Of a stretch of 64,000 nt of DNA, positions 7,661 to 47,904 are shown one piece after another. This DNA is from Acidimicrobiaceae bacterium (lineage in GTDB: Bacteria > Actinomycetota > Acidimicrobiia > Acidimicrobiales > Ilumatobacteraceae): positions 62,001-126,000 of the forward strand of contig CANFGT010000003.1 of assembly GCA_947446815.1 (NCBI GenBank), given 5' to 3'. Below the pieces are notes generated by a model. It ran no database searches and was not told where the DNA came from. It was given only the letters and a program-made list of their open reading frames with translations. Position numbers and translations under genes: made by a program. Numbering within the stretch: the first letter of the stretch is position 1; every line of letters starts with the position of its first letter.

Positions 7661-8854
7661 TTACCGAACTGGAACCCAGCGCCAATCAAGGGATGCAATT
7701 GTTGGGTCAACTATTTCAAAGATGGAGAGGCCGATAACTGTGGATCGTGAAGACATGCCAGTGTCAAGCCGAATCGCTGCATTCGCGGGAGCCTTTTCGG
7801 CTGCTTGCAAAATAGTGCTGCGTGCATTTGCCGCGTATCCAGCAATCTGTGTAGAAATCGCTTCTGAATGGCGTGCAGCAATAAAGCTTTCTAAGCGGAA
7901 TCGACGCCATTGCACATAAGACGGTGACATGTAATTGGACAAGATTTGAGTGACCATTGCGCGTTGATCGGGCGCAGTGAAAACTCCAGCCCAAGATCGA
8001 GCGTCATTGGCAGTTTGAGGAGGAAAGAGCACCTCAAGGCAATCAGCAACGAGCGAATCCTTGTTCTCGTATAGACCATAAATTGCTCCCACGCTCACGC
8101 CAGCGCGGCGAGCAATACGTGAGACCGTTGCTCGGTGAACGCCTGACCGAGCGATGACATATTCGCTGGCTGAGATAAGCGCATCCCGGACGTCGTCATA
8201 TGTCGTAGGGAATGCATATGGAGAAATTTCACGTACCGGACCTGCTGGTTTTGATGGCTTCGTAGTGCTTTGTAACTTGACCATGAATGAATCCAGAAAT
8301 GGAAACGGATCAATGTTTTCAATAGATTCGTTGTTGTAAACAGAGTTAAGAAGTGCGGCACCAAACACCGTGCAGACTGCGCCAACTGCAGCTTGTCGAT
8401 CTGCGCCATCGGTTGATGGTCCTACTCCGTAATCGTCCATGAGCCCGTTGATATCTCGTTGTACAACTTCGGCGATGACTTCATCTCGTCGTGAAGCAAC
8501 GATGACTTCCATTGCGCTTCCTAAGTCTGGAACAGCATCTGGTGCACTCGCGGCGACGAACAGTTCTCTGATGCGCTCAGAATTTCCGTTGTTCTTTGCA
8601 ATCACCGACTGAATCAGAAGCGACAAGATTTCGGACAGCATCGGCCAGATACTTTTCTCCCAAGCAAGAACAACCAACTCGGAGCGATCATCACAACGTG
8701 CATAAATAGCACCACTAGAGAATCCGGCGTCAGCGGCGACGCGGGTGAGCGCCATCTGGTCGACGCCAACAGTGCGTACGGCCTTGGCTGCACTCTGAGC
8801 AACTTTGAGATCAGTCTGACGAGATTTCTCAGATTGTCGACTTGTAAGCGCCAT
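7661..8854 (-). CDS. Tandem TetR-family regulator with two HTH domains in one chain
   Basis: This 397-residue protein contains two separate TetR N-terminal DNA-binding domains. The first is at residues 15-65, with the helix-turn-helix around 'LTRVAADAGFSSGAIYARCDD'. The second is at about 220-270, around 'VSRIARRAGVSVGAIYGLYEN'. Each is followed by a helical region of ligand-domain size. Normal TetR repressors are about 200 residues and dimerise, so this looks like a covalent dimer or a fused duplicate. The two halves are clearly diverged, which argues against a recent tandem duplication artefact. It lies upstream of the amidase gene in the same direction, so the amidase is a candidate target. 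No ligand can be inferred. Confidence 0.83.
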   Translation of the reverse strand: MALTSRQSEKSRQTDLKVAQSAAKAVRTVGVDQMALTRVAADAGFSSGAIYARCDDRSELVVLAWEKSIWPMLSEILSLLIQSVIAKNNGNSERIRELFVAASAPDAVPDLGSAMEVIVASRRDEVIAEVVQRDINGLMDDYGVGPSTDGADRQAAVGAVCTVFGAALLNSVYNNESIENIDPFPFLDSFMVKLQSTTKPSKPAGPVREISPYAFPTTYDDVRDALISASEYVIARSGVHRATVSRIARRAGVSVGAIYGLYENKDSLVADCLEVLFPPQTANDARSWAGVFTAPDQRAMVTQILSNYMSPSYVQWRRFRLESFIAARHSEAISTQIAGYAANARSTILQAAEKAPANAAIRLDTGMSSRSTVIGLSIFEIVDPTIASLDWRWVPVR

Positions 8855-10605: not shown

Positions 10606-11562
10606 TTAGCGCATCCATTGCAGGAGATCAACCTGCACTCGTGTCAACGGTTGTTGAACATCGATCCACTCGCCAATACTTGGAATGGGTCGACCGCGCG
10701 ACACAAACAACATCGATGTGTGCATGTGTGGCGCTTCCAAAAGATTCAGGCGTTGGCTCTGATAGTGAAATGGACTTCGACCATCCGGAAGCAACGTGAC
10801 ACCATGTGCAGTTCCACAGCCGACGAGAACAATTTCGCCGGGTCCATCAACTTTGGATTGTCTATAGCCAGCGCGCATTCCAGACTCAATGGGGTGCCGA
10901 TCCACAATGTCTGCAGATATTTGCATCATTGACTTGTCGCCATGCCATAGCGATGTACCGAGGCGAATACGGAAATCATTTTCGGGGTGATCGCGACGCA
11001 ACTTTTCGTATGCCGCAGCATCAAGATGGCTGACGTAGATCGGTACACGCGCATCGAGCACATCAAGCCAAGAGGTGATGTCCTTCAGGTGGGATGCGCT
11101 ATCTCCATCAAGTGGAGGATGAATTGAAAATCCTCGAACTGTGAGGCGTGCGGCTTCAATATCGGAAAGAAGTGGTTGCAGTAATTCACGTTCTACCCCG
11201 TACCTCATGACAGATGACTGCAACTTCACGATCACATCACCAGACCACCCAGCGGTGCTTAACGCAACAACATGATGCGGTGAACTCACGGTGAGAATTG
11301 TGTTGAGCGGAAGATTCTTCGGAGGAGCTGTCAGCGTCGGTGTGAGAACAATAGGAGTGACATTGCTTGGGATATCACGCGCTTCAAAAACAGTGCCCAC
11401 TGCAACTTCATTGGCAAGTTGTCCAGCTAATGGCATGAGATTCCATCGACGAAAGCCATAACCGTTTCCCTTGACCACTGGGACAAGGCCTGGCATTGAT
11501 TTGGCCACCCCTTGAACATGTGCGAGCCAGCGAGGCTCATTCACTGCAAGTCGAATCGTCAC
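10606..11562 (-). CDS. PLP fold-type III, alanine-racemase-like enzyme at the end of the mycofactocin operon
   Basis: The 318-residue product begins with a GTG that overlaps the mftF stop (GTGA), so it is translationally coupled to mftF. The N-terminal half is an alanine-racemase-type TIM barrel with the PLP lysine in 'VPVVKGNGYGF' (Lys31), and with 'VKLQSSVMRYG', 'GFSIHPP' and 'RIRLGTSLWHG' at the expected spacings. The C-terminal domain is short and the usual Alr tyrosine/methionine catalytic block is hard to recognise, so a plain alanine racemase (about 370 residues) is doubtful. Placement at the 3' end of a mycofactocin operon that lacks mftD makes a role in cofactor maturation possible. 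That is inference. A cell-wall role cannot be excluded. Confidence 0.75.
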   Translation of the reverse strand: MTIRLAVNEPRWLAHVQGVAKSMPGLVPVVKGNGYGFRRWNLMPLAGQLANEVAVGTVFEARDIPSNVTPIVLTPTLTAPPKNLPLNTILTVSSPHHVVALSTAGWSGDVIVKLQSSVMRYGVERELLQPLLSDIEAARLTVRGFSIHPPLDGDSASHLKDITSWLDVLDARVPIYVSHLDAAAYEKLRRDHPENDFRIRLGTSLWHGDKSMMQISADIVDRHPIESGMRAGYRQSKVDGPGEIVLVGCGTAHGVTLLPDGRSPFHYQSQRLNLLEAPHMHTSMLFVSRGRPIPSIGEWIDVQQPLTRVQVDLLQWMR

Positions 11563-12938
11563 GCCTTTGACCGTAGTCGCATTGCACTGCGTGTGACTAC
11601 TGGCAAAAGACAACGAATGGATCGTTCGCGAAAAACCCCGACCCAGACGCCACATCCGTATGCCATGGGGTCAAGAACACGCAGAGCGAGGTATCCAAAC
11701 GTGTGGAGGGGTTTGCGCCGCATCAGTCCAAAGAGTGCAGGGAGGATGGCGCTAAAGGCAAAGACTGCTCCGACGCGGAGTGAATACTGACCAATAAGCA
11801 GAACCGGTGGCCACCAGGCACGGACCACTGCTGAAGCGAACAGTCTGACCGTCGCAAACCAGCCGGTCATCGTGAGCTTCACTCTGGTGCTCAATGAAAT
11901 TTTGGTTGACCGAAGAGAGACCGCGAACCACATCACCATGAATGGAAGAAGTGCCGCAGTGATGAAGAGGTACCCACTCAATAATGCGACTGCAGGAATG
12001 AGCATGACAATGTTGGCGCGAAGTGGAGCTGCAGTGAATTTGTGTTTCTTATCGAGCGAGGCAGCGCTGCGGCCATAGCCACATCGTTGTCGGAGGAGTG
12101 CGCGAACTGTTGAGCGCGGCGCATGTTGGCAAACAATTGTTGGGTCGTAACGAACTGTTCTGCCGGATTCAGTAAGACGCCATATCAAGTCGACGTCTTC
12201 GCCGAGTCTCATCGAAGAATCAAATCCATGAAATTCCTTCATGATGTCTGTACGTACAACAAGAACTGCAGCAGGTACATACGAGACTCGAGAGAGTGGA
12301 CGCACAACTGCTGGTTCGTGGCCAAGATCTAGTGGTGAATGGTGTGATTCATATTCAGCGATCAGTTTTGTGCCTCCCACACTTGTAATTCGTGGAGCAA
12401 CAGCAGCGACGGATTCATCAAAAAAATGCGCAGCAAGCGCACTGATGTTGTCAATCGTAAGAACAACATCGTCATCAACGAAGGCAACATAGGGCGTGGA
12501 GACCAGTTGTAATCCTGCATTTCGGGCACCACCGGGTCCGATATTTTCAGCAAGTCGAATGACTTCTGCTCCAGCAATTTCAAACGCAATTGGTGAGCAA
12601 TCATCGACAACAATGATTCTTGGTCCCGTGATCGAATCAACCAATGTTTGCAGGCGGTTTTGGGCTATTTCATCACGAACGAAACTAGGAATGACAACCG
12701 TGATCAGGGTGAGAGGAACCGAGGTGTCGTATACGGGGTGAACGGCTCCCACTGCGAGAAGCCTTTGGGTCAGAGCCGCGTGATTGCTAGGAAGTGGCAA
12801 CTCATTCTCGATGGCATCAAGTACTGCAACACCTGGTGCAGTCACTGTGAACGATGTCAGAGGTGAACCTGCAAGGAGTTGTGTTCGGTCGTGCGAGCGA
12901 AACCACTGTTGATCAGCAATGAGGTGGGGGATGGTCAC
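11559..12938 (-). CDS. mftF: Mycofactocin system glycosyltransferase MftF
   Basis: MftF is a GT2-family membrane-associated glycosyltransferase that adds beta-1,4-glucose units to the mycofactocin core. The 459-residue protein has 'IIVVDDCSP' (nucleotide-binding Asp pair), 'YVAFVDDDVV' (DXD-like metal site) and 'LGEDVDLIWRL' (catalytic base region). C-terminal hydrophobic segments and 'DPMAYGCGVWVGVFRERS' resemble mycobacterial MftF. I chose GTG 12938: it overlaps the mftE stop (GTGA), has GGAAAG six bases upstream, and gives an N-terminus like that of the mycobacterial protein. The upstream ATG 12953 has no ribosome-binding site. It is coupled to the PLP-enzyme gene downstream in the same way. 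Confidence 0.9.
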   Translation of the reverse strand: MTIPHLIADQQWFRSHDRTQLLAGSPLTSFTVTAPGVAVLDAIENELPLPSNHAALTQRLLAVGAVHPVYDTSVPLTLITVVIPSFVRDEIAQNRLQTLVDSITGPRIIVVDDCSPIAFEIAGAEVIRLAENIGPGGARNAGLQLVSTPYVAFVDDDVVLTIDNISALAAHFFDESVAAVAPRITSVGGTKLIAEYESHHSPLDLGHEPAVVRPLSRVSYVPAAVLVVRTDIMKEFHGFDSSMRLGEDVDLIWRLTESGRTVRYDPTIVCQHAPRSTVRALLRQRCGYGRSAASLDKKHKFTAAPLRANIVMLIPAVALLSGYLFITAALLPFMVMWFAVSLRSTKISLSTRVKLTMTGWFATVRLFASAVVRAWWPPVLLIGQYSLRVGAVFAFSAILPALFGLMRRKPLHTFGYLALRVLDPMAYGCGVWVGVFRERSIRCLLPVVTRSAMRLRSKA

Positions 12939-13657
12939 TCCGAAGCTTTCCATTTTTGATTACAAGAGTTGAGGTGATCAACCAGTGATTGTGTGTACAA
13001 CATCAAGACTGCAACTCCATGTTCTGCGGTCGCTGTCGTCGCATCTCCAATGATTCCATTTTCAGCAATTGCCTGCACACCGTTCTCACGCATCGCTTCG
13101 ATAATCCCTGTCTCATGCATTGCACCAGATGCGATTGCACCTATGCGAACGCTCTCGGGAGAAATGTGAAGCATCACCGATGTTTCGGTATGACCAGCGT
13201 GCATATCTCCACCGACATAGGACGGAAGAGACCAAATGCTGTGTGTAATTTTTTCGTACTGAAGGGCCGAACTGATTGCGGCGAGTGCATCGCTGTTCCC
13301 GCCATGTCCGTTCACGATGCACACCCCACGTGCCCACGAAGCGGAACGACAGATAGCAACGACGGTGTCTTTCAATGCATTCGTTCCAGAACTGAGAGTC
13401 CCAGCGAAGCCGTGATGTTCGTCGCTTGCCGTGATGGGCAATGTGGGAGCGAGGACAACCTCAAATGCGGTGTCTTGCAACGCATCGCCAACAACGCGGT
13501 TGACGATGATTGTGTCGGTATCAAGAGGGAGATGCGGTCCGTGTTGTTCCCACGCACCGAGAGGGAGGATAAGAAGTGGTGCGCGTCCAGAAATTTCCGG
13601 TGACGTCGCAGTAAGCACGGTGACGTTGTTACTTCGTGACGTCGAGCGTGTTTTCAT
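12935..13657 (-). CDS. mftE: Mycofactocin precursor peptide peptidase MftE (creatininase family)
   Basis: MftE is a metal-dependent creatininase-family hydrolase that releases the C-terminal Val-Tyr-derived AHDP from modified MftA. The 240-residue form has the metal-binding block 'LPLGAWEQHGPHLPLDTDT' at residues 31-49, 'IVNGHGGNSDA', and 'GDMHAGHTETSVMLHISPE'. All are strongly conserved in the family. The start is uncertain. ATG 13657 overlaps the end of plsY by 29 bases and gives an N-terminus of mycobacterial length. GTG 13618, 10 bases after the plsY stop, would give a protein 13 residues shorter. Neither has a strong ribosome-binding site. It is followed by mftF with a four-base overlap. 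Confidence 0.9.
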   Translation of the reverse strand: MKTRSTSRSNNVTVLTATSPEISGRAPLLILPLGAWEQHGPHLPLDTDTIIVNRVVGDALQDTAFEVVLAPTLPITASDEHHGFAGTLSSGTNALKDTVVAICRSASWARGVCIVNGHGGNSDALAAISSALQYEKITHSIWSLPSYVGGDMHAGHTETSVMLHISPESVRIGAIASGAMHETGIIEAMRENGVQAIAENGIIGDATTATAEHGVAVLMLYTQSLVDHLNSCNQKWKASE

Positions 13658-14219
13658 TGCCCGACAACATCCGCTTGATGTTTGACACGTGTCTGACTTC
13701 AATGAGAAGAGTGATGCCCACAAAAGCGAAGACTTCCCACGAGGCGCGCTTGCCCATGGTGACAATCAAAACAAGCGAGAGCGGCACGACAAGTACCGAG
13801 GCGAGCGCGGCTTTCTTGGACAGCTTCATGATGGTGAACCACGAAACCATGCAGATCAACATGATCACGGGGAACAACGGAAGAAGTACTCCGGCGCCGG
13901 TTGCAACGCCTTTGCCCCCCTTGAACTTGCGAGTGATGGGGAAGACGTGGCCAAGTACGGCGGCCGCACCACAGATGTATGCGGCTGGTCGGTTATTCAA
14001 GACGAGGAGCGTGGGAATTGCGCCTTTTGCGACGTCAATAATGAAGACCACTGCGAAGTACTTGAAGCCCAATGCGCGCCCAACATTGCTCGCCCCGGGG
14101 TTACCCGAACCGAACGATGTGATGTCGATGCCTTTTGCGCGAGCAACAATGATGGCGCTAGGAATCGTGCCAACGAAGTAAGCGGCAACTGCAGAAATTG
14201 CAATCGCAAGGGGACTCAC
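13629..14219 (-). CDS. plsY: Glycerol-3-phosphate acyltransferase PlsY, embedded in the mycofactocin operon
   Basis: PlsY transfers an acyl group from acyl-phosphate to glycerol 3-phosphate in the membrane. The 196-residue protein shows all three family motifs: 'GTIPSAIIVARAKGID' plus 'GSGNPGASNVGRALG' (residues 18-50), 'GHVFPITRKFKGGKGVAT' (about 89-106), and 'EVRHVSNIKRMLSGNE' near the C-terminus. It also has five or so transmembrane helices. It overlaps the mftC stop by four bases (ATGA), so it is translationally coupled inside the mft operon. I do not know this arrangement from mycobacteria, where mftD follows mftC. The protein looks fully functional. Whether it serves general phospholipid synthesis or something specific to this cluster is unknown. 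Confidence 0.93.
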   Translation of the reverse strand: MSPLAIAISAVAAYFVGTIPSAIIVARAKGIDITSFGSGNPGASNVGRALGFKYFAVVFIIDVAKGAIPTLLVLNNRPAAYICGAAAVLGHVFPITRKFKGGKGVATGAGVLLPLFPVIMLICMVSWFTIMKLSKKAALASVLVVPLSLVLIVTMGKRASWEVFAFVGITLLIEVRHVSNIKRMLSGNENTLDVTK

Positions 14220-15331
14220 GATGTGACCTTGATTCGTTCTGGCTTGGAATGGTCCATGGACGGACGTGGAAGAAGTGCAACAGGAACCGCGCCAAGAAGT
14301 TTTTCACCATCGCCACCGACACACTCTGGGTCGGGACCATCAAGTGGAATGCCTGTGAAGAACTTTGCTGCCATACATCCGCCTTGGCAGGCGTCAAATG
14401 CACCACAAGATGCACATGCACCGGCGCTTTGTGGTTCACGCAGTTCAGTGAACAAATCTGAAGCACGCCACACCTTGGTGAAGCCGCCATCGTCAAGAAC
14501 ATTGCCAGCTTTGAAATCTTCATGAATTACAAACGGGCATGCGTAGACATCGCCGAGCGGATCAATGAGGCACACCACGCGGCCAGCACCACACATGTTG
14601 AGTCCAGGAAGTGATTCTCCAAATGCATTGAGATGGAAGAAGGAGTCACCGGTGAGAACATTCTCGCCATGAGCTAACAGCCAGTCGTAGATCTGGCGCT
14701 GTTGTGCATTGGTGGGGTGCAGTTCATTCCATGTGTCTGCGCCACGACCAGCAGGGCGCAGACGCGTGATGCGCAACTGTGCGCCGAATGAATCAGCGAG
14801 TGCTTTGAACTCATCGAGTTGATCAACGTTATGGCGAGTGACAACAACCGAAATCTTGAACTGACCAAAACCTGCATCGCGAAGATTTTCCATTGCGCGA
14901 ATTGCGGTGTCGTACGAACCTTCACCGCGCACCGCATCGTTCACTTCGGCGTTTGTGCCGTCGAGACTGATTTGAATGTCGAGGTAGTCCATCGCGGCAA
15001 GACGTTCTGCGTTCTTCTTGTCGATGAAAGCACCATTGGTGGAGAACTTCACACCGATGCCATTAGATATGGAGTGTTCGAGAATTTCGAAGAAGTCACG
15101 ACGCACCATTGGCTCGCCGCCGCCGATGTTGATGTAGAAGACCTGCAAGTCGCGAAGTTCATCCAGAACAGCTTTGGCTTGTTCTGTTGAGAGTTCACGC
15201 TCGTCGCGCTGACCTGAACTGGAGAGGCAGTGAACACATGCAAGGTTGCAGGCGTAGGTGAGTTCCCAAGTCAGACAGATCGGGGCATCAAGCCCTGACT
15301 TCATTTGGGCAACAAGGCTTTCAGCGGACAC
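14216..15331 (-). CDS. mftC: Mycofactocin radical SAM maturase MftC
   Basis: MftC is the radical SAM/SPASM enzyme that oxidatively decarboxylates the C-terminal Tyr of MftA and then cross-links it to the neighbouring Val. The 371-residue protein has the SAM-cluster motif 'CNLACVHC' (Cys28, 32, 35), 'INIGGGEP' (67-74) and 'QISLDG'. Its SPASM domain carries the cysteine set in 'NMCGAG', 'CLIDPLGDVYACPF', 'CASCGAFDACQGGCMA' and 'DPEC'. Similarity to mycobacterial MftC is obvious over the full length, from 'GLDAPICLTWELTYACN' to 'FTGIPLDGPDPEC'. The start is a GTG that overlaps the mftB stop by 11 bases; a later in-frame ATG is nine codons on. Confidence 0.97.
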   Translation of the reverse strand: MSAESLVAQMKSGLDAPICLTWELTYACNLACVHCLSSSGQRDERELSTEQAKAVLDELRDLQVFYINIGGGEPMVRRDFFEILEHSISNGIGVKFSTNGAFIDKKNAERLAAMDYLDIQISLDGTNAEVNDAVRGEGSYDTAIRAMENLRDAGFGQFKISVVVTRHNVDQLDEFKALADSFGAQLRITRLRPAGRGADTWNELHPTNAQQRQIYDWLLAHGENVLTGDSFFHLNAFGESLPGLNMCGAGRVVCLIDPLGDVYACPFVIHEDFKAGNVLDDGGFTKVWRASDLFTELREPQSAGACASCGAFDACQGGCMAAKFFTGIPLDGPDPECVGGDGEKLLGAVPVALLPRPSMDHSKPERIKVTS

Positions 15332-15587
15332 GAATGATCTCCGATGTGGTGAGAGAGGAAAGTGCCTTCACAAAGGAAGGCCAACGCTGCTCTTCCACGC
15401 CCTCACCTGCGAGTGCTTCGCGAAGTGATGGGTAGGAAGAGGCATTACGAACGACCCGAACAATGTCGGGATGGCGAAGAAAGACAAGGCGACGGTTGCC
15501 GTAGTGATACGCCAAAGCCCCGAATGGCTCGGGTCTCAGCGCGACTTGCGGGTGCATTTCACACGCCGACTCGAGCGTGAGGGTCAT
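15321..15587 (-). CDS. mftB: Mycofactocin chaperone MftB (peptide-binding RRE protein)
   Basis: MftB is a small RiPP-recognition-element protein that binds the MftA leader and presents it to MftC. From ATG 15587 the product is 88 residues and contains 'HPQVALRPEPFGALAYHYGNRRLVFLRHPDIV', the characteristic PqqD/MftB-like beta-hairpin and winged region; I name only key parts here (RPEPFGALAYHY and RRLVF). The open frame extends upstream, but that would run through mftA, so the ATG 19 bases after the mftA stop (or the GTG just before it) is the sensible start. It overlaps mftC by 11 bases. Length and position fit the family exactly. Confidence 0.93.
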   Translation of the reverse strand: MTLTLESACEMHPQVALRPEPFGALAYHYGNRRLVFLRHPDIVRVVRNASSYPSLREALAGEGVEEQRWPSFVKALSSLTTSEIIRVR

Positions 15588-15606
15588 CACAGGGGAGCCC
15601 GTTGGC

Positions 15607-15726
15607 TCAGTAGACACCGCACATGCCGTCGATGGAGATTTCCTCGACGAGGAGCTCCTCGGTGACAACTGCTTCGGTGACTTCTGCCTGCTCGGCGACC
15701 GGGGACTGTGGGGTGTCTTGTTCCAT
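15607..15726 (-). CDS. mftA: Mycofactocin precursor peptide MftA
   Basis: This very small gene (39 codons plus TGA) encodes the ribosomal precursor of mycofactocin. The peptide starts MEQDTPQSP, continues with an acidic Glu/Val-rich leader (EEISIDG region), and ends in the diagnostic core 'IDGMCGVY'. The last two residues, Val38 and Tyr39, become the redox cofactor after decarboxylation, cross-linking and release. It is first in the minus-strand operon and is followed after 19 bases by mftB. Everything needed is intact: the start ATG, the conserved GMCGVY end and the stop directly after Tyr. It diverges from the NDMA-dependent alcohol dehydrogenase gene. Confidence 0.97.
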   Translation of the reverse strand: MEQDTPQSPVAEQAEVTEAVVTEELLVEEISIDGMCGVY

Positions 15727-15840: not shown

Positions 15841-16956
15841 ATGAAGACGAAGGCAGCTGTGCTCTGGGAAGTAAATGCTCCATGGAGTGTTGAAGAGATC
15901 GAGCTTGACGCTCCTGGCCCAGGCGAAGTCCTGGTCAAGATCGCCGCATCAGGCATGTGCCATTCAGATGAGCACCTCACCACGGGCGACCTTCCGTTCG
16001 CTCTGCCCATCGTGGGTGGCCATGAAGGCGCCGGCGTTGTCGAGCAGGTGGGCGAAGGCGTTAGCTGGATTGCTCCTGGTGACCATGTCGTTTTTGGTTT
16101 CATCCCTTCATGTGGTCGCTGCCCAAGCTGCTCTACCGGTCACCAGAACTTGTGTGACCTCGGTGCACTCATGGGACTCGGTCTGCAAATCTCTGACGGC
16201 ACATCACGTCACCACGCACAAGGCAAAGACCTCACCCTCATGTGCATGCTCGGAACATTCGCGCATCACACCGTGGTGAACGAAGCATCCTGCATCAAGA
16301 TCGAAAAAGACGTTCCACTCGACAAGGCTTGCTTGCTCGGTTGTGGCGTTGTCACTGGTTGGGGTTCTGCGGTGTATGCAGCCGACGTCACTCCTGGCGA
16401 CACCGTTGTTGTCGTTGGTGTTGGCGGTATCGGTGCAAACGCAATTCAGGGCGCAAAGATCGCTGGTGCAAAGCGCATCGTTGCTATCGACCCAGTGGAA
16501 TTCAAGCGTGAAAAGGCAATGGAATTTGGTGCAACTCACACTGTGAGCTCGATGGCTGAAGCATTGCCGTTCTTGCAGGAACTCACATGGGGAACCATGG
16601 CAAACAAAGTCATCATGACAATGGGCGTTGGCGATGGGCAGCTCATGGGCGAAGCAATGGCACTTGCCGCAAAGCGTGGTCGTGTTGTTGTCACCAACAT
16701 TCACCCTGCATTTGAGATGGGTGGCGCAAACATGAGCCTCCTCGACCTCACTCTTATGGAGAAGCAGCTCGTTGGCTCGTTGTTCGGTTCCGGTAACCCA
16801 CGTGCAGACATTCCAAAACTCCTTGGCATGTACCGCGAAGGCCAGCTTGATCTCGATGGTTTGGTGACCAACACCTACACACTCGATGACATCAACCAGG
16901 GCTACCAAGACATGCGTGATGGCAAGAACATCCGCGGCGTTCTCGTTTACGAATAA
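15841..16956 (+). CDS. NDMA-dependent (mycofactocin-associated) alcohol dehydrogenase, copy 1
   Basis: This 371-residue zinc-dependent MDR alcohol dehydrogenase is of the group that keeps its NAD(H) tightly bound and relies on mycofactocin (or the dye NDMA) as electron acceptor. Catalytic zinc ligands lie in 'GMCHSDEH' and 'GGHEGAGVV', with the third Cys in 'LLGCGVVTGWGSA'. Structural zinc cysteines are in 'CGRCPSCSTGHQNLC' (residues 97-111). The Rossmann loop is 'VGVGGIGANAIQGAKIAGA'. A good AAGGGG ribosome-binding site precedes ATG 15841. It diverges from mftA and is followed 29 bases later by a paralogue, which supports dependence on the cofactor made next door. The alcohol substrate is not known. 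Confidence 0.93.
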   Translation: MKTKAAVLWEVNAPWSVEEIELDAPGPGEVLVKIAASGMCHSDEHLTTGDLPFALPIVGGHEGAGVVEQVGEGVSWIAPGDHVVFGFIPSCGRCPSCSTGHQNLCDLGALMGLGLQISDGTSRHHAQGKDLTLMCMLGTFAHHTVVNEASCIKIEKDVPLDKACLLGCGVVTGWGSAVYAADVTPGDTVVVVGVGGIGANAIQGAKIAGAKRIVAIDPVEFKREKAMEFGATHTVSSMAEALPFLQELTWGTMANKVIMTMGVGDGQLMGEAMALAAKRGRVVVTNIHPAFEMGGANMSLLDLTLMEKQLVGSLFGSGNPRADIPKLLGMYREGQLDLDGLVTNTYTLDDINQGYQDMRDGKNIRGVLVYE

Positions 16957-16985: not shown

Positions 16986-18137
16986 ATGAAGTCACGTGCA
17001 GCGGTTTTGTACGGAATTGACCAGCCATGGGTCGTCGAAGAAATTGAAGTCGACGAGCCAAAAGCCAATGAAGTGTTGGTGAACTGGAAAGTTTCTGGCA
17101 TGTGCCACTCTGACGAACACTTCGTCACGGGCGACATGGTCCCCCCTAAAGAGCTCCTCGCCATGATGGGCGTCGACGACTTTTTCCCATTTATTGGTGG
17201 GCATGAAGGCGCTGGCGTTGTCGTTAAGTGCGGCCCTGGTGTCACCTCTTTGCAGCCCGGTGATCACGTGTCGGCAAGTTTCGTGCCCTCATGTGGCCGC
17301 TGCCGTTACTGCTCCACGGGTCGTCAGAACTTGTGCAACCTTGGTGCAGGAACCCTCACCGGTGGAATGATCACCGATGGAACTCATCGTCACCATGTGA
17401 AAGACGGTCGCTCCGTCAAGCTCATGGCGAAGTTGGGCACATTCTCTGAATACGCCACAGTCGCTGAAGCATCGCTGATCAAGGTGGAGAAGGATCTCCC
17501 GCTTGATGCTGTTGCTTTGGTGTCATGTGGCGTGGCAACTGGTTGGGGCTCAGCGACTAATCGCGCGGACACCCAGCCTGGTGACACAGTTGTGGTCGTC
17601 GGTATTGGTGGAATCGGCATCAATGCTGTGCAGGGTGCGCGTATGGCGGGTGCAAAGCGCATCATCGCAATCGACCCAGTGGAGTTCAAGCGTGAAAAGG
17701 CAATGGAGTTCGGTGCAACGCACACGTTCTCTTCCATGGCTGAAGCGATTCCTCATATCAACGAACTCACCTGGGGTGAGATGGCCGACCGCGTCATCAT
17801 GACTCCTGGCGTGTTGCACGGAGACATGATGGGCGAAGCAATGTCAATGGTGGGCAAGGGCGGCACGTGTGTTGTTACTGCAATTTCTCCAATGCAAGAA
17901 ACCAGCGCGGACATCAACCTCTTCCAATTGGCAATGTGGAACAAGGAAGTGAAGGGCACCATATTTGGCAGCCTTAATCCTCGTGCCGATATTCCAAAAC
18001 TTCTCGACATGTATCGCGTTGGCGACCTCAAGCTTGATGAATTGATCACAAAGCGTTACACGCTTGATCAAATCAACGAGGGGTACCAAGCAATGCGTGA
18101 CGGCGAAAATATTCGCGGCATCATCGTCAATGACTAA
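16986..18137 (+). CDS. NDMA-dependent (mycofactocin-associated) alcohol dehydrogenase, copy 2
   Basis: This 383-residue paralogue of the preceding enzyme keeps the same zinc ligands: 'GMCHSDEH', 'GGHEGAGVV', 'CGRCRYCSTGRQNLC' and 'VSCGVATGWGSA'. It also keeps the Rossmann loop 'VGIGGIGINAVQGARMAGA'. It differs by an insertion after the catalytic Cys region ('DMVPPKELLAMMGVDDFF') that would lie near the active site, and by a diverged C-terminal substrate region. Different alcohol specificity is therefore likely. GAGGGGG lies just upstream of the start. The last eight bases overlap the start of the MoxR gene, so the ATPase is translationally coupled to this dehydrogenase. Confidence 0.93.
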   Translation: MKSRAAVLYGIDQPWVVEEIEVDEPKANEVLVNWKVSGMCHSDEHFVTGDMVPPKELLAMMGVDDFFPFIGGHEGAGVVVKCGPGVTSLQPGDHVSASFVPSCGRCRYCSTGRQNLCNLGAGTLTGGMITDGTHRHHVKDGRSVKLMAKLGTFSEYATVAEASLIKVEKDLPLDAVALVSCGVATGWGSATNRADTQPGDTVVVVGIGGIGINAVQGARMAGAKRIIAIDPVEFKREKAMEFGATHTFSSMAEAIPHINELTWGEMADRVIMTPGVLHGDMMGEAMSMVGKGGTCVVTAISPMQETSADINLFQLAMWNKEVKGTIFGSLNPRADIPKLLDMYRVGDLKLDELITKRYTLDQINEGYQAMRDGENIRGIIVND

Positions 18138-34633: not shown

Positions 34634-36442
34634 ATGGCAGTTCAACTCACTGAGATCGATCGCGAAGAACTTCGACAGAGATACATCGCGGAACGCGACA
34701 AGCGTCTTCGTTCTGATGGCAATGAGCAATATCAAGAGCCATCTGGGAGATTCTCTAATCTGCTCGATGATCCGTACGTTCAAACTGCCGACAGAGATGC
34801 AATCCATGAAGATGTAACAGTCCTCATCGTCGGGGCAGGTTTTGCTGGCCTTGTTACTGGCGCTCGTTTAAAGCAGGCCGGAATCCACGACGTGCGTCTC
34901 ATTGACAAGGCAGGTGATGTCGGCGGCGTTTGGTACTGGAATCGTTACCCCGGCGCGATGTGCGACACGGCAGCGATGATTTATCTTCCTTTGTTGGAAG
35001 AGACAGGAACAGTGCCCTCGGCAAAATATGTTCCAGCGCCAGAGATTCATGCACATGCAAAGCGCATAGCGACAACCTTCAATTTGTATGACGGTGCATT
35101 GCTTTCAACGGGGATTACCTCTATTGAATGGGATGCAGCAATCTCGCGTTACATCGTGCACACAGATCGCGGTGACGTTCTTCGTGCTCGTCATCTAGCG
35201 ATGGGCACTGGGCCGTTGCATCGCGCAAAATTGCCCGGTATTCGAGGTTTGCAATCATTTAAGGGTCATGCGTTTCATACAAGTCGTTGGGATTACGACT
35301 TCACAGGCGGTGATCCGACTGGTGCACTCATGGAGAATCTTTCTGACAAGCGCGTGGGCATCATCGGCACAGGTGCAACATCAGTGCAGTGCATCCCGCA
35401 TCTATCTCGTGCGGCGAAGGAACTTTTCGTGTTTCAACGCACCCCATCTGCGATTGACGAGAGAAACAACCATGCCATCGACCCAGAGTGGTTTGGCACA
35501 TTGGGAACAGGTTGGCAACGCGAATGGATGATGAACTTCACCACGTTGCAGACAATGGGCTTCGCTGATGAAGACTTAGTGAAGGATGGTTGGACAGATA
35601 TTTCCCTACGCATTCGTGATCGTGTGATTGAAAAAATACAGGCAGGGGAGTCTCCCGGACCTGAGACTTTGCTCGCCGCATATGAAGAGAGCGATGACGA
35701 AAAGATGTCGGAGATTCGCGCGCGTGTTGACAGCATCGTGCGTAATCCGCAAGCAGCGGAGGGATTAAAGCCGTGGTATCGCCAACTCTGCAAGCGCCCT
35801 TGTTTCCATGATGAGTATTTGCAGTCTTACAACAACCCATCGACGCATCTCATTGATACCGCGGGTAAAGGCGTTGAACGTATTGATGAAACAGGTGTGT
35901 GGGTCAATGGTGTCCATTATGAACTTGATTGTTTAATCATTGCCTCGGGTTTTGAGGTCGGGACTTCATACACGCGTCGCAATGGTTACGACGTTGCTGG
36001 TCGCGAAGGTCAACTTCTCTCTGACTATTGGGCAGAAGGAATGCACACGTTGCACGGTATTCACGTTCACGGGTTCCCCAATATGTACATCTTGGGCGCA
36101 GCACAAGCTGCGAATCTCATCTCCAACATCCCGCAGAACTATGTCGAGAACAGTGTTGCAATTGCGGCTGTGATTGCCGAAGCGGAACGCATGGGTTCGC
36201 CAGCAGTGGAAGTAACGAAAGAAGCCGAAGATGCGTGGATTGAACTGATCACGTCGAATACTCGTGGTCTCCGTGGCGGAGAAGACTGCACCCCTGGCTA
36301 TTACAACAACGAGGGCAAACCTGTTGGTCGTAAAGAGCAACTGAATAGCAGTGGTCATCCTGGTGGCCCCATTGCATTTTTCAATCATCTTGAAGAATGG
36401 CGAGCCGCAGGCACTTTTGCCGGTTTGACCTTTACGAAATAG
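34634..36442 (+). CDS. Baeyer-Villiger monooxygenase (type I, cyclohexanone-monooxygenase-like)
   Basis: The 602-residue FAD/NADPH enzyme inserts oxygen into ketones. It has the FAD Rossmann motif 'IVGAGFAGLVTGARL' (residues 65-79), the BVMO fingerprint 'FKGHAFHTSRWDY' (209-221), and the NADPH motif 'IIGTGATSVQ' (243-252). An N-terminal extension of about 60 residues precedes the FAD site, as in phenylacetone- and steroid-type BVMOs. 'GVWYWNRYPGAMCDT' gives the GGxWxxxxYPG signature. Probable substrates are cyclic or aryl ketones. It stands next to a DUF1330 gene and near other lipid/ketone catabolism genes, but its own operon is just itself. Confidence 0.93.
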   Translation: MAVQLTEIDREELRQRYIAERDKRLRSDGNEQYQEPSGRFSNLLDDPYVQTADRDAIHEDVTVLIVGAGFAGLVTGARLKQAGIHDVRLIDKAGDVGGVWYWNRYPGAMCDTAAMIYLPLLEETGTVPSAKYVPAPEIHAHAKRIATTFNLYDGALLSTGITSIEWDAAISRYIVHTDRGDVLRARHLAMGTGPLHRAKLPGIRGLQSFKGHAFHTSRWDYDFTGGDPTGALMENLSDKRVGIIGTGATSVQCIPHLSRAAKELFVFQRTPSAIDERNNHAIDPEWFGTLGTGWQREWMMNFTTLQTMGFADEDLVKDGWTDISLRIRDRVIEKIQAGESPGPETLLAAYEESDDEKMSEIRARVDSIVRNPQAAEGLKPWYRQLCKRPCFHDEYLQSYNNPSTHLIDTAGKGVERIDETGVWVNGVHYELDCLIIASGFEVGTSYTRRNGYDVAGREGQLLSDYWAEGMHTLHGIHVHGFPNMYILGAAQAANLISNIPQNYVENSVAIAAVIAEAERMGSPAVEVTKEAEDAWIELITSNTRGLRGGEDCTPGYYNNEGKPVGRKEQLNSSGHPGGPIAFFNHLEEWRAAGTFAGLTFTK

Positions 36443-37902: not shown

Positions 37903-39138
37903 ATGACGGCACCGGTGTATGTCCTGGGGGGCTACCAAACCGACTTTTCGCGCAGTTATGCGAAGGAAGGTCTCGACATCTCGGACATGATGCGCGAAGC
38001 CATTGAGGGCGCGCTTTCTGACGCAAATGTGGACGTTTCCGAGATTGACACCGTGCATGTAGGCAATGCGTTTTCGGAATTACAGCGGGGCCAAGGTCAC
38101 CTTGGTGCAATGGCATCGCAGGTCGTGCCTGGCTTGTGGGGAAAGCCTGCAATGCGCCATGAAGGTGCATGTGCTTCGTCATCTTTAGCGATCCTCTCAG
38201 CGATGTCAGAGATTGAGGCTGGTCGATACGACGTCGCGCTTGTTCTCGGGGTGGAAGAGCAGAAGGCGCTTCCGGGCGATCAATCATCGGTAAATCAGAA
38301 TGCCGCTTCGTGGCAGGGACATGAAGGCATTTCGTGCACATTTATGTGGCCTGCAGTTTTCGGGTTGCTCGGCGAGGAATACGCATATCGGTACGGGCTT
38401 GATCGTCAGTATTTGAATCGCGTCGCAGAAATCAATTACGGCAATGCCAAGTTGAACCCGTTGTCTCAAACTCGTGCATGGAAGTTCACAGACCTCAGCT
38501 TCACCGATGACGATGTTGCAAACCCCATCATCGAGCCAGGGACTCGTCGTCAAGATTGCGGTCAGATCACCGACGGTGCATCTGCTCTCATTCTGTGTTC
38601 AGAAAAGTTCATGCAGCAATATGCACAACGTCATGCAAAGAAGTCTTCTGAGACCGCACAAATTCTTGGCTGGGGTCACCGCAACGCAGGTATTAAATTC
38701 ATGGACAAGTTAGAGCGCAGCAAGAACGAAAAGTTCATCTTCCCGCACGTGAATGATGCGATCACAGATGCATTCCGTCGCGCTGGTGTTTCCGATGTGA
38801 TGCAACTTGATGGAATCGAAACACATGACTGTTTCACCACGACCGAATACATGGCAATTGATCACTTCGGAATCACTGCCCCAGGTGAATCATGGAAGGC
38901 TATTGAAAGCGGGCTGATCGAGCGTGATGGCGAATTGCCTATCAATGCAAGTGGTGGCTTGATCGGTGGCGGACATCCCGTGGGTGCAACTGGTGCACGC
39001 ATGGTGTTCGATGCAGTGAAGCAGGTAACAAATCGCGCAGGTGATGTGCAAGTAGAAGGCGCTAAAACATATGGCACCTTGAACATCGGCGGTTCACTTT
39101 CCACTGTTGCCAGTTTTGTTATTGGCGTCAGGGACTAG
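37903..39138 (+). CDS. Thiolase-family acyl-CoA acyltransferase
   Basis: The 411-residue thiolase has the acyl-accepting nucleophile Cys90 in 'HEGACASSSLAILSA', the second active-site pair in 'GIETHDCFTTTEYMA' and the C-terminal His in 'GGGHPVGATGARMV'. The position of the reactive HDC Cys matches SCPx/Ltp-like thiolases used in sterol and branched-acyl degradation more than the common AtoB type. It probably cleaves a 3-ketoacyl-CoA. A good AAAGGGGGAA ribosome-binding site precedes ATG 37903. It heads a six-gene plus-strand run, with only 10 bases to the carotenoid-oxygenase-like gene. Confidence 0.92.
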   Translation: MTAPVYVLGGYQTDFSRSYAKEGLDISDMMREAIEGALSDANVDVSEIDTVHVGNAFSELQRGQGHLGAMASQVVPGLWGKPAMRHEGACASSSLAILSAMSEIEAGRYDVALVLGVEEQKALPGDQSSVNQNAASWQGHEGISCTFMWPAVFGLLGEEYAYRYGLDRQYLNRVAEINYGNAKLNPLSQTRAWKFTDLSFTDDDVANPIIEPGTRRQDCGQITDGASALILCSEKFMQQYAQRHAKKSSETAQILGWGHRNAGIKFMDKLERSKNEKFIFPHVNDAITDAFRRAGVSDVMQLDGIETHDCFTTTEYMAIDHFGITAPGESWKAIESGLIERDGELPINASGGLIGGGHPVGATGARMVFDAVKQVTNRAGDVQVEGAKTYGTLNIGGSLSTVASFVIGVRD

Positions 39139-39148
39139 GAGAGAGATC

Positions 39149-40663
39149 ATGGATCTTCGTACACGTGTATTGCAATCACAGATGCCCGACCCTGCTGATG
39201 CGCCGGCTTGGATCAACGATGAATTACATGCTGGAAACCCCTATTTACATGGGTTTTATGCACCAGTGATGACTGAGATGACAGCCGACGATCTCGAAGT
39301 CGAAGGCACAATCCCAGTCGATATGTATGGCGCGTATTACCGCCAGTCACCCAACCCGATGTTCCGCCCGAAGTTTGATCATCACTTCTTTGACGGTGAC
39401 GGAATGGTCTACGGCATCTACTTCCGTGACGGGAAGGTGAGTTTCTCTCGAAAATATGTGCGCACAGAAGTGTTAAGCGAGGACATCAATGGAGTTGTCA
39501 CAACGCGCAACGGGATGATGGCCGAGTTTGATCTTCGTGATGCAGAAGCGCGCGGTTATGAAGAAGTGCGTAATCCTGATTATGTGCGTGATACCGCGAA
39601 TACCACGTTGAATATGCACAACGGCAAGTTGCTCACGGGTTGGTACAACGCTGGCGCGGTCTATGAACTTGATCCGGTCACGCTTGATACCAAGGGTCTG
39701 CAGGATTTTGGAGGCAGTTTGCGCACAACGTTGAATGCTCATCCGAAGACGGATACGCGTACGGGCGAACTCATCGGCTACGACTACGCAGACTTTGAAA
39801 GTTTTTATACCTATTACGTATGGGACAAGCACGGTGCTTTGAAGCATGTTGCGCGCATTGATTTGCCAGGGCCACGTCTGCCCCATGACATCACCATCAC
39901 GGAGAACTACAGCTTGCTGCACGACTGGCCGTTCTTTCATGACCCAGAGATGTTGAAGAGCATTGGTCGACGTGTTGTCACATTTAAGCCGGATATGCCT
40001 TCTCGTATTGGTGTGATGCCGCGTTATGGCACGCAAGATCAGGTGATGTGGTTTGAGTTCAAGCCGGGATATGTCTTGCATATGGTGAATGCATGGGAAG
40101 AGGGCGACTGGATCATCATGGATGGCTGCATGCAGCCAGATCCGCGCATCAAGCGCGATCCAGCAGAAGGTCCACTTGCGAGCATGTTGGCGTATATGCG
40201 AGTGAAGTCGCATTTGTATCGCTGGCGTATGAATTTGCGCACGGGAGAAACCTCAGAAGAGTCGTTGGATGATCTGAATGTTGAGTTTTGTTTGCCTGAC
40301 GTCGACTTGTATGGCCAAAAGACGCGCTATTCGTATCACCAACACATTCCGTTGGAAGCAAAGACACTTATCTTCACCGACCTCGTGAAGTATGACCACG
40401 AAACACTGAAGCGCGAAGTGGTGAGCTATGGCGATGGTTGGCTGGGAAGTGAATCATCGTTTGCTCGCAGTACAAATGGCGGGGCAGAAGACAACGGGTA
40501 CGTCGTCACTATCTGCACGAACGTCGAGACCTATGCGTCAGAATGTTGGATATACGCAGCTCAGGACATCACTAGTGGTCCCATTGCAAAAGTGAAACTC
40601 CCTAGCCGTTGTGGACCCGGATTCCATGCAACATGGGTTCAGGGCGAACACATCTGGGGCTAA
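39149..40663 (+). CDS. Carotenoid cleavage oxygenase family protein
   Basis: The 504-residue protein is a seven-bladed-propeller dioxygenase of the RPE65/CCD/lignostilbene-dioxygenase family. The four Fe(II)-ligand histidines are visible: His198 ('LNAHPKTD'), His246 ('LPHDITI'), His311 ('VLHMVNAW') and His493 ('GFHATWV'). The family cleaves a central C=C bond in carotenoids, apocarotenoids or stilbenes. I start at ATG 39149 because GGAGAGAG precedes it; the longer frame would overlap the thiolase stop. Co-transcription with a thiolase and enoyl-CoA hydratase suggests that the products enter acyl-CoA degradation. That pathway is inferred from position only. Confidence 0.93.
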   Translation: MDLRTRVLQSQMPDPADAPAWINDELHAGNPYLHGFYAPVMTEMTADDLEVEGTIPVDMYGAYYRQSPNPMFRPKFDHHFFDGDGMVYGIYFRDGKVSFSRKYVRTEVLSEDINGVVTTRNGMMAEFDLRDAEARGYEEVRNPDYVRDTANTTLNMHNGKLLTGWYNAGAVYELDPVTLDTKGLQDFGGSLRTTLNAHPKTDTRTGELIGYDYADFESFYTYYVWDKHGALKHVARIDLPGPRLPHDITITENYSLLHDWPFFHDPEMLKSIGRRVVTFKPDMPSRIGVMPRYGTQDQVMWFEFKPGYVLHMVNAWEEGDWIIMDGCMQPDPRIKRDPAEGPLASMLAYMRVKSHLYRWRMNLRTGETSEESLDDLNVEFCLPDVDLYGQKTRYSYHQHIPLEAKTLIFTDLVKYDHETLKREVVSYGDGWLGSESSFARSTNGGAEDNGYVVTICTNVETYASECWIYAAQDITSGPIAKVKLPSRCGPGFHATWVQGEHIWG

Positions 40664-46265: not shown

Positions 46266-46404
46266 GTCTAACCCCCGATATGGAGACTAATTCAGGAATG
46301 TGACACATCCGCACGGCAGACCAAACCAGTGCTACGCAGGGGTTTCGACCATGCCCTTACAGGGCCACAGTCTTAGTATCAGTAGTGGAAAGCAGGGGGC
46401 AAAT

Positions 46405-47904
46405 ATGACCATGACCGCAGACTCGTCAACACAGCGCAAGCAGGGCCTTGAGCATTTCGACGTTCTCATCGTTGGTGCTGGCATCTCGGGTGTTGGCACG
46501 GCGTATCACCTGCAAGATCAGGCTCCGAACAAGTCTTTTGTTGTCCTTGAGGCATACGAATCCTTTGGCGGCACCTGGCACATGCATCAGTACCCCGGTG
46601 TTCGCTCCGACAGTGACCTCTATACGTTCGGCTATCGCTTCAAGCCATGGGTCGGTACCCCAATTGCTTCATCTGAAGAAATTAAGAAGTACATGGGCGA
46701 AGTGATTGAGGACAATGGTCTCAACAAGCACATTCGTTACCGTCATCGCATCACTGGGGCTTCATGGTCGAGCGCTGACAACTTGTGGACCGTTGATGTC
46801 ACCAACTTGAACACTGGCGACACCTTCCAGATGACAACAAACTTTTTGTGGATGTGCCAGGGCTACTACAAGCATTCAGAGGGCTACACCCCTGAGTGGG
46901 CCGGCATGGATTCCTACAAGGGCAAAATTGTCCACCCGCAAACGTGGCCACAAGATCTCGATTACAAGGGCAAGAAAGTTCTTGTCATCGGTTCGGGTGC
47001 AACGGCAGCAACAGTGGTGCCTGCAATGGCGCAAGATGTGGAGCACATCACGATGTTGCAGCGTTCACCGACGTATTTCATTCCTGGTCGTAATGCAAAC
47101 GAGCTTGTTGATCAGCTGCGTGCATTAGATGTTGACGAAACATGGATTCATGAGATTGCACGTCGCAAGACATTGGCAGACCAGCACATGGTCACAGTGA
47201 TGTCAGTGCAGGAACCTGATTTTGTTCGCGACATGTTGCTCACTGGCGTGAAGGATCTCTTGCCAGAGGGCTACGACATGAAGCACTTCACTCCGTCGTA
47301 TCGCCCATGGCAACAGCGCATTGCATTCGTGCCAAACGGTGATTTGTTTGCAGGTATTTCTTCGGGCAAGGCCAGTGTCGTGACCGATGAGATTGAAACA
47401 TTCAATGCAACAGGTGTGCTCACAAAGGGTGGCACTCATATTGATGCGGACATCATTGTCACTGCAACCGGTTTCAACCTCAGTGTGTTAGGTGACATCC
47501 CATTCGTCGTCGATGGCAAGCCTGTTGAGTGGAGCCAGACCGTGACATATCGCGGGATGATGTTCACCGATGTGCCGAACCTTGCGTGGGTGTTTGGCTA
47601 CTTCCGCGCAAGCTGGACATTGCGTGTTGACCTCATGGCCGACTTCATTCTTCGTATGTTCACGTTGATGGAAGAAAAGGGCGCGCAACGCGTGATACCT
47701 CAGCTTCGTCCCGAAGATGCAGATATGGAAATCGGCAGTTGGATTGAGCCAAGCAACTTCAACCCGAACTACCTCATGCGTGCACAGCACCTCATGCCAA
47801 AGTCGGGCACAAAGTCAGAGTGGAAGCACGACCAGGATTATTGGGCAGAGAAGGAAATCCTTCCTGTTGCCAACCTCGAAGATGGTTGCTTGCGTTTCGA
47901 GTAA
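46405..47904 (+). CDS. EthA-like Baeyer-Villiger/flavin monooxygenase
   Basis: The 499-residue FAD/NADPH monooxygenase strongly resembles mycobacterial EthA across its length. It has the FAD motif 'LIVGAGISGVGTAYHLQDQ' (residues 21-39), 'FGGTWHMHQYPGVRSDSD' (54-71), a BVMO-type fingerprint 'YKGKIVHPQTWPQD' (171-184), the NADPH motif 'VIGSGATAATVVPA' and 'LPEGYDMKHF'. EthA-type enzymes oxidise ketones and thioamides/sulfides. AGCAGGGGG precedes ATG 46405; the open frame upstream to 46300 is not part of the family. A long hairpin follows the stop. It is divergent from the D-aminoacylase-like gene. Confidence 0.92.
   Translation: MTMTADSSTQRKQGLEHFDVLIVGAGISGVGTAYHLQDQAPNKSFVVLEAYESFGGTWHMHQYPGVRSDSDLYTFGYRFKPWVGTPIASSEEIKKYMGEVIEDNGLNKHIRYRHRITGASWSSADNLWTVDVTNLNTGDTFQMTTNFLWMCQGYYKHSEGYTPEWAGMDSYKGKIVHPQTWPQDLDYKGKKVLVIGSGATAATVVPAMAQDVEHITMLQRSPTYFIPGRNANELVDQLRALDVDETWIHEIARRKTLADQHMVTVMSVQEPDFVRDMLLTGVKDLLPEGYDMKHFTPSYRPWQQRIAFVPNGDLFAGISSGKASVVTDEIETFNATGVLTKGGTHIDADIIVTATGFNLSVLGDIPFVVDGKPVEWSQTVTYRGMMFTDVPNLAWVFGYFRASWTLRVDLMADFILRMFTLMEEKGAQRVIPQLRPEDADMEIGSWIEPSNFNPNYLMRAQHLMPKSGTKSEWKHDQDYWAEKEILPVANLEDGCLRFE

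Follow-up and report, generated by a model that had tools for sequence, protein, structure and literature searches.

The mft operon and its unlinked mftD

The subject of this study is a mycofactocin (mft) operon from an Acidimicrobiaceae bacterium (GCA_947446815.1), located in a 64,000-nucleotide stretch of contig CANFGT010000003.1 (positions 62,001 to 126,000) that we refer to as the window. The operon runs on the minus strand in the order mftA-mftB-mftC-plsY-mftE-mftF, followed by a gene with a pyridoxal phosphate (PLP) enzyme fold, mostly in overlapping frames (Table 1). All six named genes exceed their curated profile cut-offs, bearing out the order and single strand given in the initial annotation, and with MftA, MftB, MftC and MftF all over cut-off within one operon the locus has the makeup of a mycofactocin biosynthesis system. 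The mftC-plsY and mftF-PLP junctions are four-nucleotide GTGA overlaps, as first described, whereas mftE and mftF, thought to be joined by an ATGA coupling, overlap by 19 nucleotides; plsY and mftE overlap by 29 nucleotides, mftB and mftC by 11, and a gap of about 19 nucleotides lies between mftA and mftB. No mftD is present at the locus, and its slot is indeed held by a plsY that passes both the TIGR00023 and PF02660 cut-offs.

The sequences make it very probable that this is ordinary mycofactocin chemistry in an unusual layout, with mftD placed elsewhere and plsY a housekeeping gene sharing the transcript. MftA-F would make normal mycofactocin, which would serve the two divergently transcribed alcohol dehydrogenases; mftD would have reached the window's lineage apart from the remaining cluster, probably by horizontal transfer; and plsY would share the transcript in a family that keeps at this place plsY, the PLP gene and often dedA, with mft genes on both sides.

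MftD is encoded in the genome. A single over-cut-off mftD (701.1 bits, cut-off 470.85), intact and without a stop, lies on the same contig as the window (G000:C3:164280-165428), 86,970 bp from mftC and thus not co-clustered with it; co-clustering of the two is typical, not universal (Haft 2011, PMC3023750). This gene rules out loss of mftD from the genome, which the initial annotation had entertained, and its alternative suggestion that mftD lies elsewhere proved correct, although the gene stands alone there and not in a conserved mft locus. Since mftD and the window share a contig, a binning error is not needed as an explanation. Judged by reading their translations, the genes beside this mftD encode a HAD-type hydrolase and a znuABC-like set, some or all of which recur next to mftD in part of the genus. 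The window thereby corrects a false lead, in that an empty mftD slot is not a missing step. We also considered a second mftD-like gene (C6:69267-70355) as MftD and rejected it as LldD-like, with 348.1 bits to a lactate dehydrogenase model and 248.1 to MftD. That the distant mftD might itself be a lactate dehydrogenase is scarcely credible: it does belong to the same FMN-dependent alpha-hydroxyacid dehydrogenase superfamily (PF01070), but its score is 701.5 bits with the MftD model and 244.5 with the best-fitting one for lactate dehydrogenase, the opposite way from the LldD-like gene.

It is very unlikely that this lineage oxidises AHDP, the substrate of MftD, by another enzyme or makes a different cofactor. 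The absence of mftD from the locus and the existence of same-family relatives with mftC and no mftD match would favour such a view, but an intact, over-cut-off MftD is encoded in the genome and OYE_1, the candidate substitute discussed below, is absent from it at E 1e-100. A different cofactor, one of the possibilities raised initially, is unsupported, the core of MftA having the usual IDGMCGVY terminus. As in mycobacterial mftABCDEF(G) clusters, the MftA, B, C, E, F and MftD families are all represented over curated cut-offs and NDMA-dependent alcohol dehydrogenases adjoin; the window differs in its unlinked mftD and in having plsY between mftC and mftE.

Table 1. Genes of the mft operon and the adjoining alcohol dehydrogenases, in window coordinates.
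Gene	Product	Position	Strand	Profile match
mftA	mycofactocin precursor peptide, 39 residues, ends IDGMCGVY	15607..15726	-	TIGR03969 48.5 bits (cut-off 25), PF23709
mftB	chaperone; ATG start 15587	15321..15587	-	TIGR03967 94.5 bits (cut-off 33)
mftC	radical SAM maturase	14216..15331	-	TIGR03962 627.2 bits (cut-off 265)
plsY	glycerol-3-phosphate acyltransferase	13629..14219	-	TIGR00023 144.7 bits (cut-off 137.2); PF02660 148.6 bits (cut-off 24.1)
mftE	peptidase	12935..13657	-	TIGR03964 219 bits (cut-off 172)
mftF	glycosyltransferase	11559..12953	-	TIGR03965 308.7 bits (cut-off 280)
PLP gene	alanine-racemase N-terminal fold	10606..11562	-	PF01168 41.8 bits
	NDMA-dependent alcohol dehydrogenase, divergent from mftA	15841..16956	+	TIGR03989 562.8 bits (cut-off 440)
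	second NDMA-dependent alcohol dehydrogenase	16986..18137	+	TIGR03989 561.4 bits (cut-off 440)

An unlinked mftD is found throughout the window's family (f1), which is probably Ilumatobacteraceae, a name carried by several database genomes that share this locus. In the relatives sample, all 24 f1 genomes with an over-cut-off mftD carry it away from mftC (22 on another contig, two more than 80 kb off), as do the six further genomes of the class sample, including the single-contig G062, G087 and G207, giving 30 of 30 in total; in the relatives sample, not one of the 33 mft stretches from f1 contains mftD. Not counted among the 24 are the genus members G010, G014 and G022, which have partial, under-cut-off mftD on other contigs. 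Outside f1, 37 genomes have both genes, and in 30 of them no more than 10 kb separates mftD from mftC; the seven in which this is not so (G057, G157, G161, G172, G291, G459 and G470) mean that an unlinked mftD is not specific to f1.

A single f1 clade was rejected in the MftD tree (p-AU 3e-16; 1.9e-47 on the 49 shared genomes) and not rejected in the MftC tree of the same 49 genomes (p 0.40). MftD had been extracted from 51 genomes, and the shared-genome test was run without G125 and G215. Since the MftD tree departs from the family while the MftC tree can follow it, mftD appears to have moved on its own, and horizontal transfer of mftD by itself is the simplest reading of these sequences; the gene would then be unlinked because it reached the window's lineage separately from the remaining cluster. 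The window's MftD clusters with those of families f22 and f27 (support 100/99) and is 76-81% identical to eight of 11 f22 MftDs, the remaining three being at 72, 71 and 55%. It is only 61-68% identical to the MftD of its own-family relatives G062, G068, G087, G091, G102 and G207, whose MftC proteins are 73-81% identical to that of the window. Even for the nine MftDs of genus g1 with those of G032 and G036 added, a single clade is only just acceptable (p 0.0255).

Two genomes show further arrangements. The mft locus of G087 (L192, L249) is split, with mftBC in one place and plsY about 4 kb downstream, and in a second place, about 160 kb away, mftD adjoining mftE, DUF4395, acyltransferase-like, PLP and ROK genes. 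G215 (L187, L340), 97% complete, has an over-cut-off mftD and no mftC match at E 1e-100.

plsY within the operon

The product of plsY aligns to the solved PlsY 5xj5 over residues 10-191, and the conserved loops SGNxGAxNV, FKGGKGVAT and RHxxNIxRxLxGxE are kept; the remainder of the comparison was of gene context only. No other PF02660 place turned up in the window's genome at E 1e-5, and we therefore rejected the idea of an extra copy. In all 44 of the 44 f1 mft stretches read (the window, 33 from the relatives sample and 10 others), plsY is found downstream of mftC at a distance of at most 4 kb, direct adjacency being broken by an OYE_1 gene in G033 and G129 and by the 4-kb gap in G087. Outside f1, it was found in none of 49 mft stretches, a few of which end soon after mftC (L226 at once). 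The insertion is thus neither strain-specific, as the initial annotation had allowed, nor a general trait of mft loci. Of the two findings that the initial annotation named as refuting its reading, only half has come true, mftD being elsewhere but alone, and the position of plsY being shared across the family. In the relatives sample PF02660 was matched in 35 of 37 f1 genomes, adjoining mftC in all but G034; it occupies a single place in 33, and two in G004, where the mft stretch is duplicated, and G013, where the gene is split by contig ends. G029 and G035 gave no PF02660 match.

G034 (91% complete) has no mftC match and keeps the order valS-LytR-plsY-dedA-PLP. Around plsY in 18 stretches, from G034 and from other families, the neighbours of the window's gene are shared by G034 only; the window's PlsY matched nothing in two of the 18. 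A DedA-type gene (PF09335) follows plsY in many relatives and is absent from the window's locus. It was seen after plsY in L070, L082, L083, L086, L088 and L089, with the order plsY-dedA-mftE where mftE was found. Other families of the order have weak (26-28%) MftC-like matches among radical SAM genes a few kb away from plsY (L159, L160, L163-L166), probably unrelated paralogues.

Most simply, plsY is a housekeeping gene, predicted to act in acyl-phosphate-dependent acylation of glycerol 3-phosphate, that happens to share the operon. The data fit a resident plsY/dedA pair with the mft operon arranged around or into it, and no cofactor role for plsY is needed. The initial annotation had hinted at a membrane-lipid link. 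On such a view plsY would act in the mycofactocin system by acylating or anchoring the cofactor or by coupling its supply to membrane lipid synthesis. Retention of plsY downstream of mftC across all f1 stretches, the overlapping frames and the response of Mycobacterium smegmatis MftR to long-chain acyl-CoA (PMC8728441) would be in keeping with such a link. We nevertheless regard it as unlikely: as the only PlsY found in the genome, the protein has a predicted essential lipid role that suffices to explain it, the conserved PlsY stretches are intact, the 49 mft stretches outside f1 lack the gene, it stays in place in G034, without an mftC match, and a second membrane gene, dedA, has likewise entered the locus in many relatives, though not in the window.

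Several points weigh against ordinary chemistry with a bystander plsY and a separately acquired mftD. Lasting co-transcription of plsY across the family would also be expected from a functional link. The window's genome is 90.85% complete, a position on another contig of a fragmented genome is weaker evidence of unlinked mftD than a measured distance, and in the MftD tree the row of G125 is long and support is weak at 12 branches. In another departure from mycobacterial clusters, no MftG over cut-off was found in the window's own genome (best match 43.8 bits against 387.45) or among the 61 genomes that the search covered; MftG is present in 75% of mftC genomes (PMC11778925).

OYE_1 and ETF genes as a probable stand-in for mftD

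Taken by itself, the window shows a known system in a variant layout; the new, testable part lies outside it, in the mutual exclusion of mftD and OYE_1 (TIGR03996), an old yellow enzyme (OYE) family without assigned function. In the class sample (198 genomes), mftC occurs in 38 genomes and mftD in 25, 24 of these with mftC. OYE_1 was matched at E 1e-100 in 13, of which 11 are over cut-off, the others being G150, where the gene is cut by a contig end, and the divergent G187. All 13 have mftC and none has an mftD match, no genome in the sample having both enzymes; mftC with neither was found in G244, a genome 88% complete in which a contig end truncates mftC. The phylum sample (376 genomes) contains mftC in 47, mftD in 39 and OYE_1 in seven, again with both in none, and here G415, with an mftC match of only 335 bits, has neither. 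OYE_1 is therefore present in 13 of 14 (class) and seven of eight (phylum) genomes that are mftC-positive and mftD-negative, and the exclusion gives Fisher p values of 3e-9 and 1e-7, respectively, with kinship ignored. The samples overlap: 23 of the 47 phylum mftC genomes are also in the class sample, and only G284 is new among the seven OYE_1 genomes. Genome searches scored the best three to nine first-look candidates in many genomes, and partial genes below the E limits were counted as absent.

Six incomplete genus members (G005, G011, G017, G019, G023 and G024; 71-82% complete) speak against a clean rule: mftC is present in each, mftD gave no match, and the mft stretch, the only part searched for OYE_1 in them, contains no OYE. 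The same is true of G052 (95% complete, mftC cut by a contig end).

A scan of named genomes, including a few already in the samples, yielded 201 OYE_1 loci, of which we considered the best 80. The stretch includes mftC in 63 of these and mftD in none; of the 17 without mftC, 11 start no more than 1.2 kb from the end of a contig, and L316 has mftC 17 kb off. Among the 12 mftC records of a plasmid collection (plasmids only, no chromosomes), mftD is present in four and OYE_1 directly follows mftC in six, with both in none and neither in two, both haloarchaeal. The regions were examined in 11 of the 12, Streptomyces lavendulae CP077967 being judged from match tables. OYE_1 was observed near mftC in L087, L191, L195, L196 and L198, from sister genera, and in L344-L346, L348 and L350, from Streptomyces plasmids; in no stretch or sampled genome was it seen together with mftD.

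On the MftC tree, the mftD/OYE_1 state changes at least seven times, six of them forced by strong branches, and a single OYE_1 clade was rejected. A first tree (66 rows, nine changes) joined long branches and was rebuilt without G415, G187 and G125 (63 rows). Both trees include the window with six of the 30 other genus members that have mftC, and leave out rows shorter than 300 residues (L098, L103, L226 and L248) as well as L252, a second stretch of G054, which was already in the tree; G040 was labelled OYE_1 from a tblastn match, not a family search. Because tree counts cannot separate gain from loss, that OYE came first in f1 is only a guess.

OYE_1 is often found together with OYE_2. An OYE_2-like second match accompanies it in 12 of the 13 class genomes, and in the remaining one, G223, a fragment of OYE_2 lies where a contig ends; G415 and two haloarchaeal plasmids have an OYE_2-type enzyme with parts of an electron transfer flavoprotein (ETF) and no OYE_1. 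The mft loci concerned (L228 from G415, L353 and L354) are divergent, and neither OYE_1 nor mftD is present in the stretch. Of 100 stretches with OYE_1, 49 contain ETF genes, as do none of 33 with mftD and three of 51 with neither, some genomes being counted twice. On Streptomyces plasmids the order is mftA-B-C-OYE_1-OYE_2-ETFa-FixC-like-ferredoxin-ETFb, and in sister genera OYE_1 and OYE_2 (TIGR03996, TIGR03997) with mft_etfA and mft_etfB (NF038209, TIGR04503) are located at the mft locus, sometimes flanking plsY. Both OYE_1 and mft_etfB are hypoth_equivalogs in NCBIfam.

Four invariant cysteines of OYE_1 (C335, C338, C342 and C354 in A1) form an apparent Fe-S site. Among the relatives of OYE_1 with solved structures are 2,4-dienoyl-CoA reductase and the amine-oxidising histamine and trimethylamine dehydrogenases, and amine dehydrogenases of this kind can hand electrons to an ETF-type acceptor. 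Aligned to the reductase 1ps9, OYE_1 has Ser and Val at two candidate catalytic positions, which we take to be Tyr166 and His252 in that enzyme, arguing against plain ene-reduction by OYE_1. Amine-oxidising relatives and a dedicated ETF would make an OYE a sensible AHDP oxidase. MftD, for its part, uses oxygen.

Deletion of mftD in M. smegmatis leads to accumulation of AHDP-glycosides, with no mycofactocin made (PMC7491314), and mftD-less producers therefore need a substitute. OYE_1, often with OYE_2 and a dedicated ETF/FixCX set, is the probable stand-in, so that the early suggestion of another enzyme for AHDP oxidation, while not needed in the window, is probably right for the OYE_1-bearing sister genera in which no mftD was found. 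Since an OYE_2-like match accompanies it and some loci have only the OYE_2 type, OYE_1 may not be what replaces MftD on its own. We lean, by a narrow margin of confidence, towards a model in which an OYE/ETF module (OYE_1 and/or OYE_2, mft_etfA/B, and FixC- and FixX-like proteins) oxidises AHDP in mftD-less producers and passes electrons through ETF to the quinone pool, probably independently of oxygen. MftD and the module would have repeatedly displaced each other, and in the window's lineage a separately acquired, unlinked mftD would have replaced the OYE genes that still flank plsY in sister genera.

A close published parallel is the mftD-less clusters of Saccharopolyspora described with BGCFlow (PMC11162802), which cites a report of methylated mycofactocin from S. 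erythraea. Like the window's operon, these lack mftD in the cluster; they differ in carrying a TIGR03997 OYE, of unassigned function, whereas the window's genome has mftD and no OYE_1. Section 28 of that paper makes no claim of substitution or exclusivity. The OYE case may explain how organisms such as Saccharopolyspora still make mycofactocin without mftD, and the complement, seen in a plasmid collection as well as in both of the overlapping genome samples, points to a concrete predicted role for a family of unassigned function. In literature searches, with subscription journals mostly outside their reach, we did not find mycofactocin joined with glycerol-3-phosphate acyltransferase or with electron transfer flavoprotein, and TIGR03996 was not among the matches listed; no match listed combined mycofactocin with Acidimicrobiia or Ilumatobacter.

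Other features of the locus and window

The first of the two NDMA-dependent alcohol dehydrogenases, a class tied to mycofactocin by Haft 2011 (PMC3023750), is a predicted mycofactocin-using enzyme. The PLP gene is not mft-specific, since a relative that gave no mftC match (L158) has it too. A GTG codon just before the ATG is a possible alternative start for mftB; the profile query started four codons early, at 15599. Two TetR-type proteins, one in the window and one near mftD, were considered as MftR without result, neither matching TIGR03968 at E 1e-8; the genome itself was not searched for MftR.

Outside the operon, a single protein encoded at window positions 7661-8854 has TetR-type DNA-binding matches at both ends. 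Two Baeyer-Villiger-type flavin monooxygenases and a carotenoid-oxygenase-like protein are encoded at 34634-36442, 46300-47904 and 39107-40663, and one of the monooxygenases reaches 684.8 bits to PtlE, below the PtlE cut-off of 1100.

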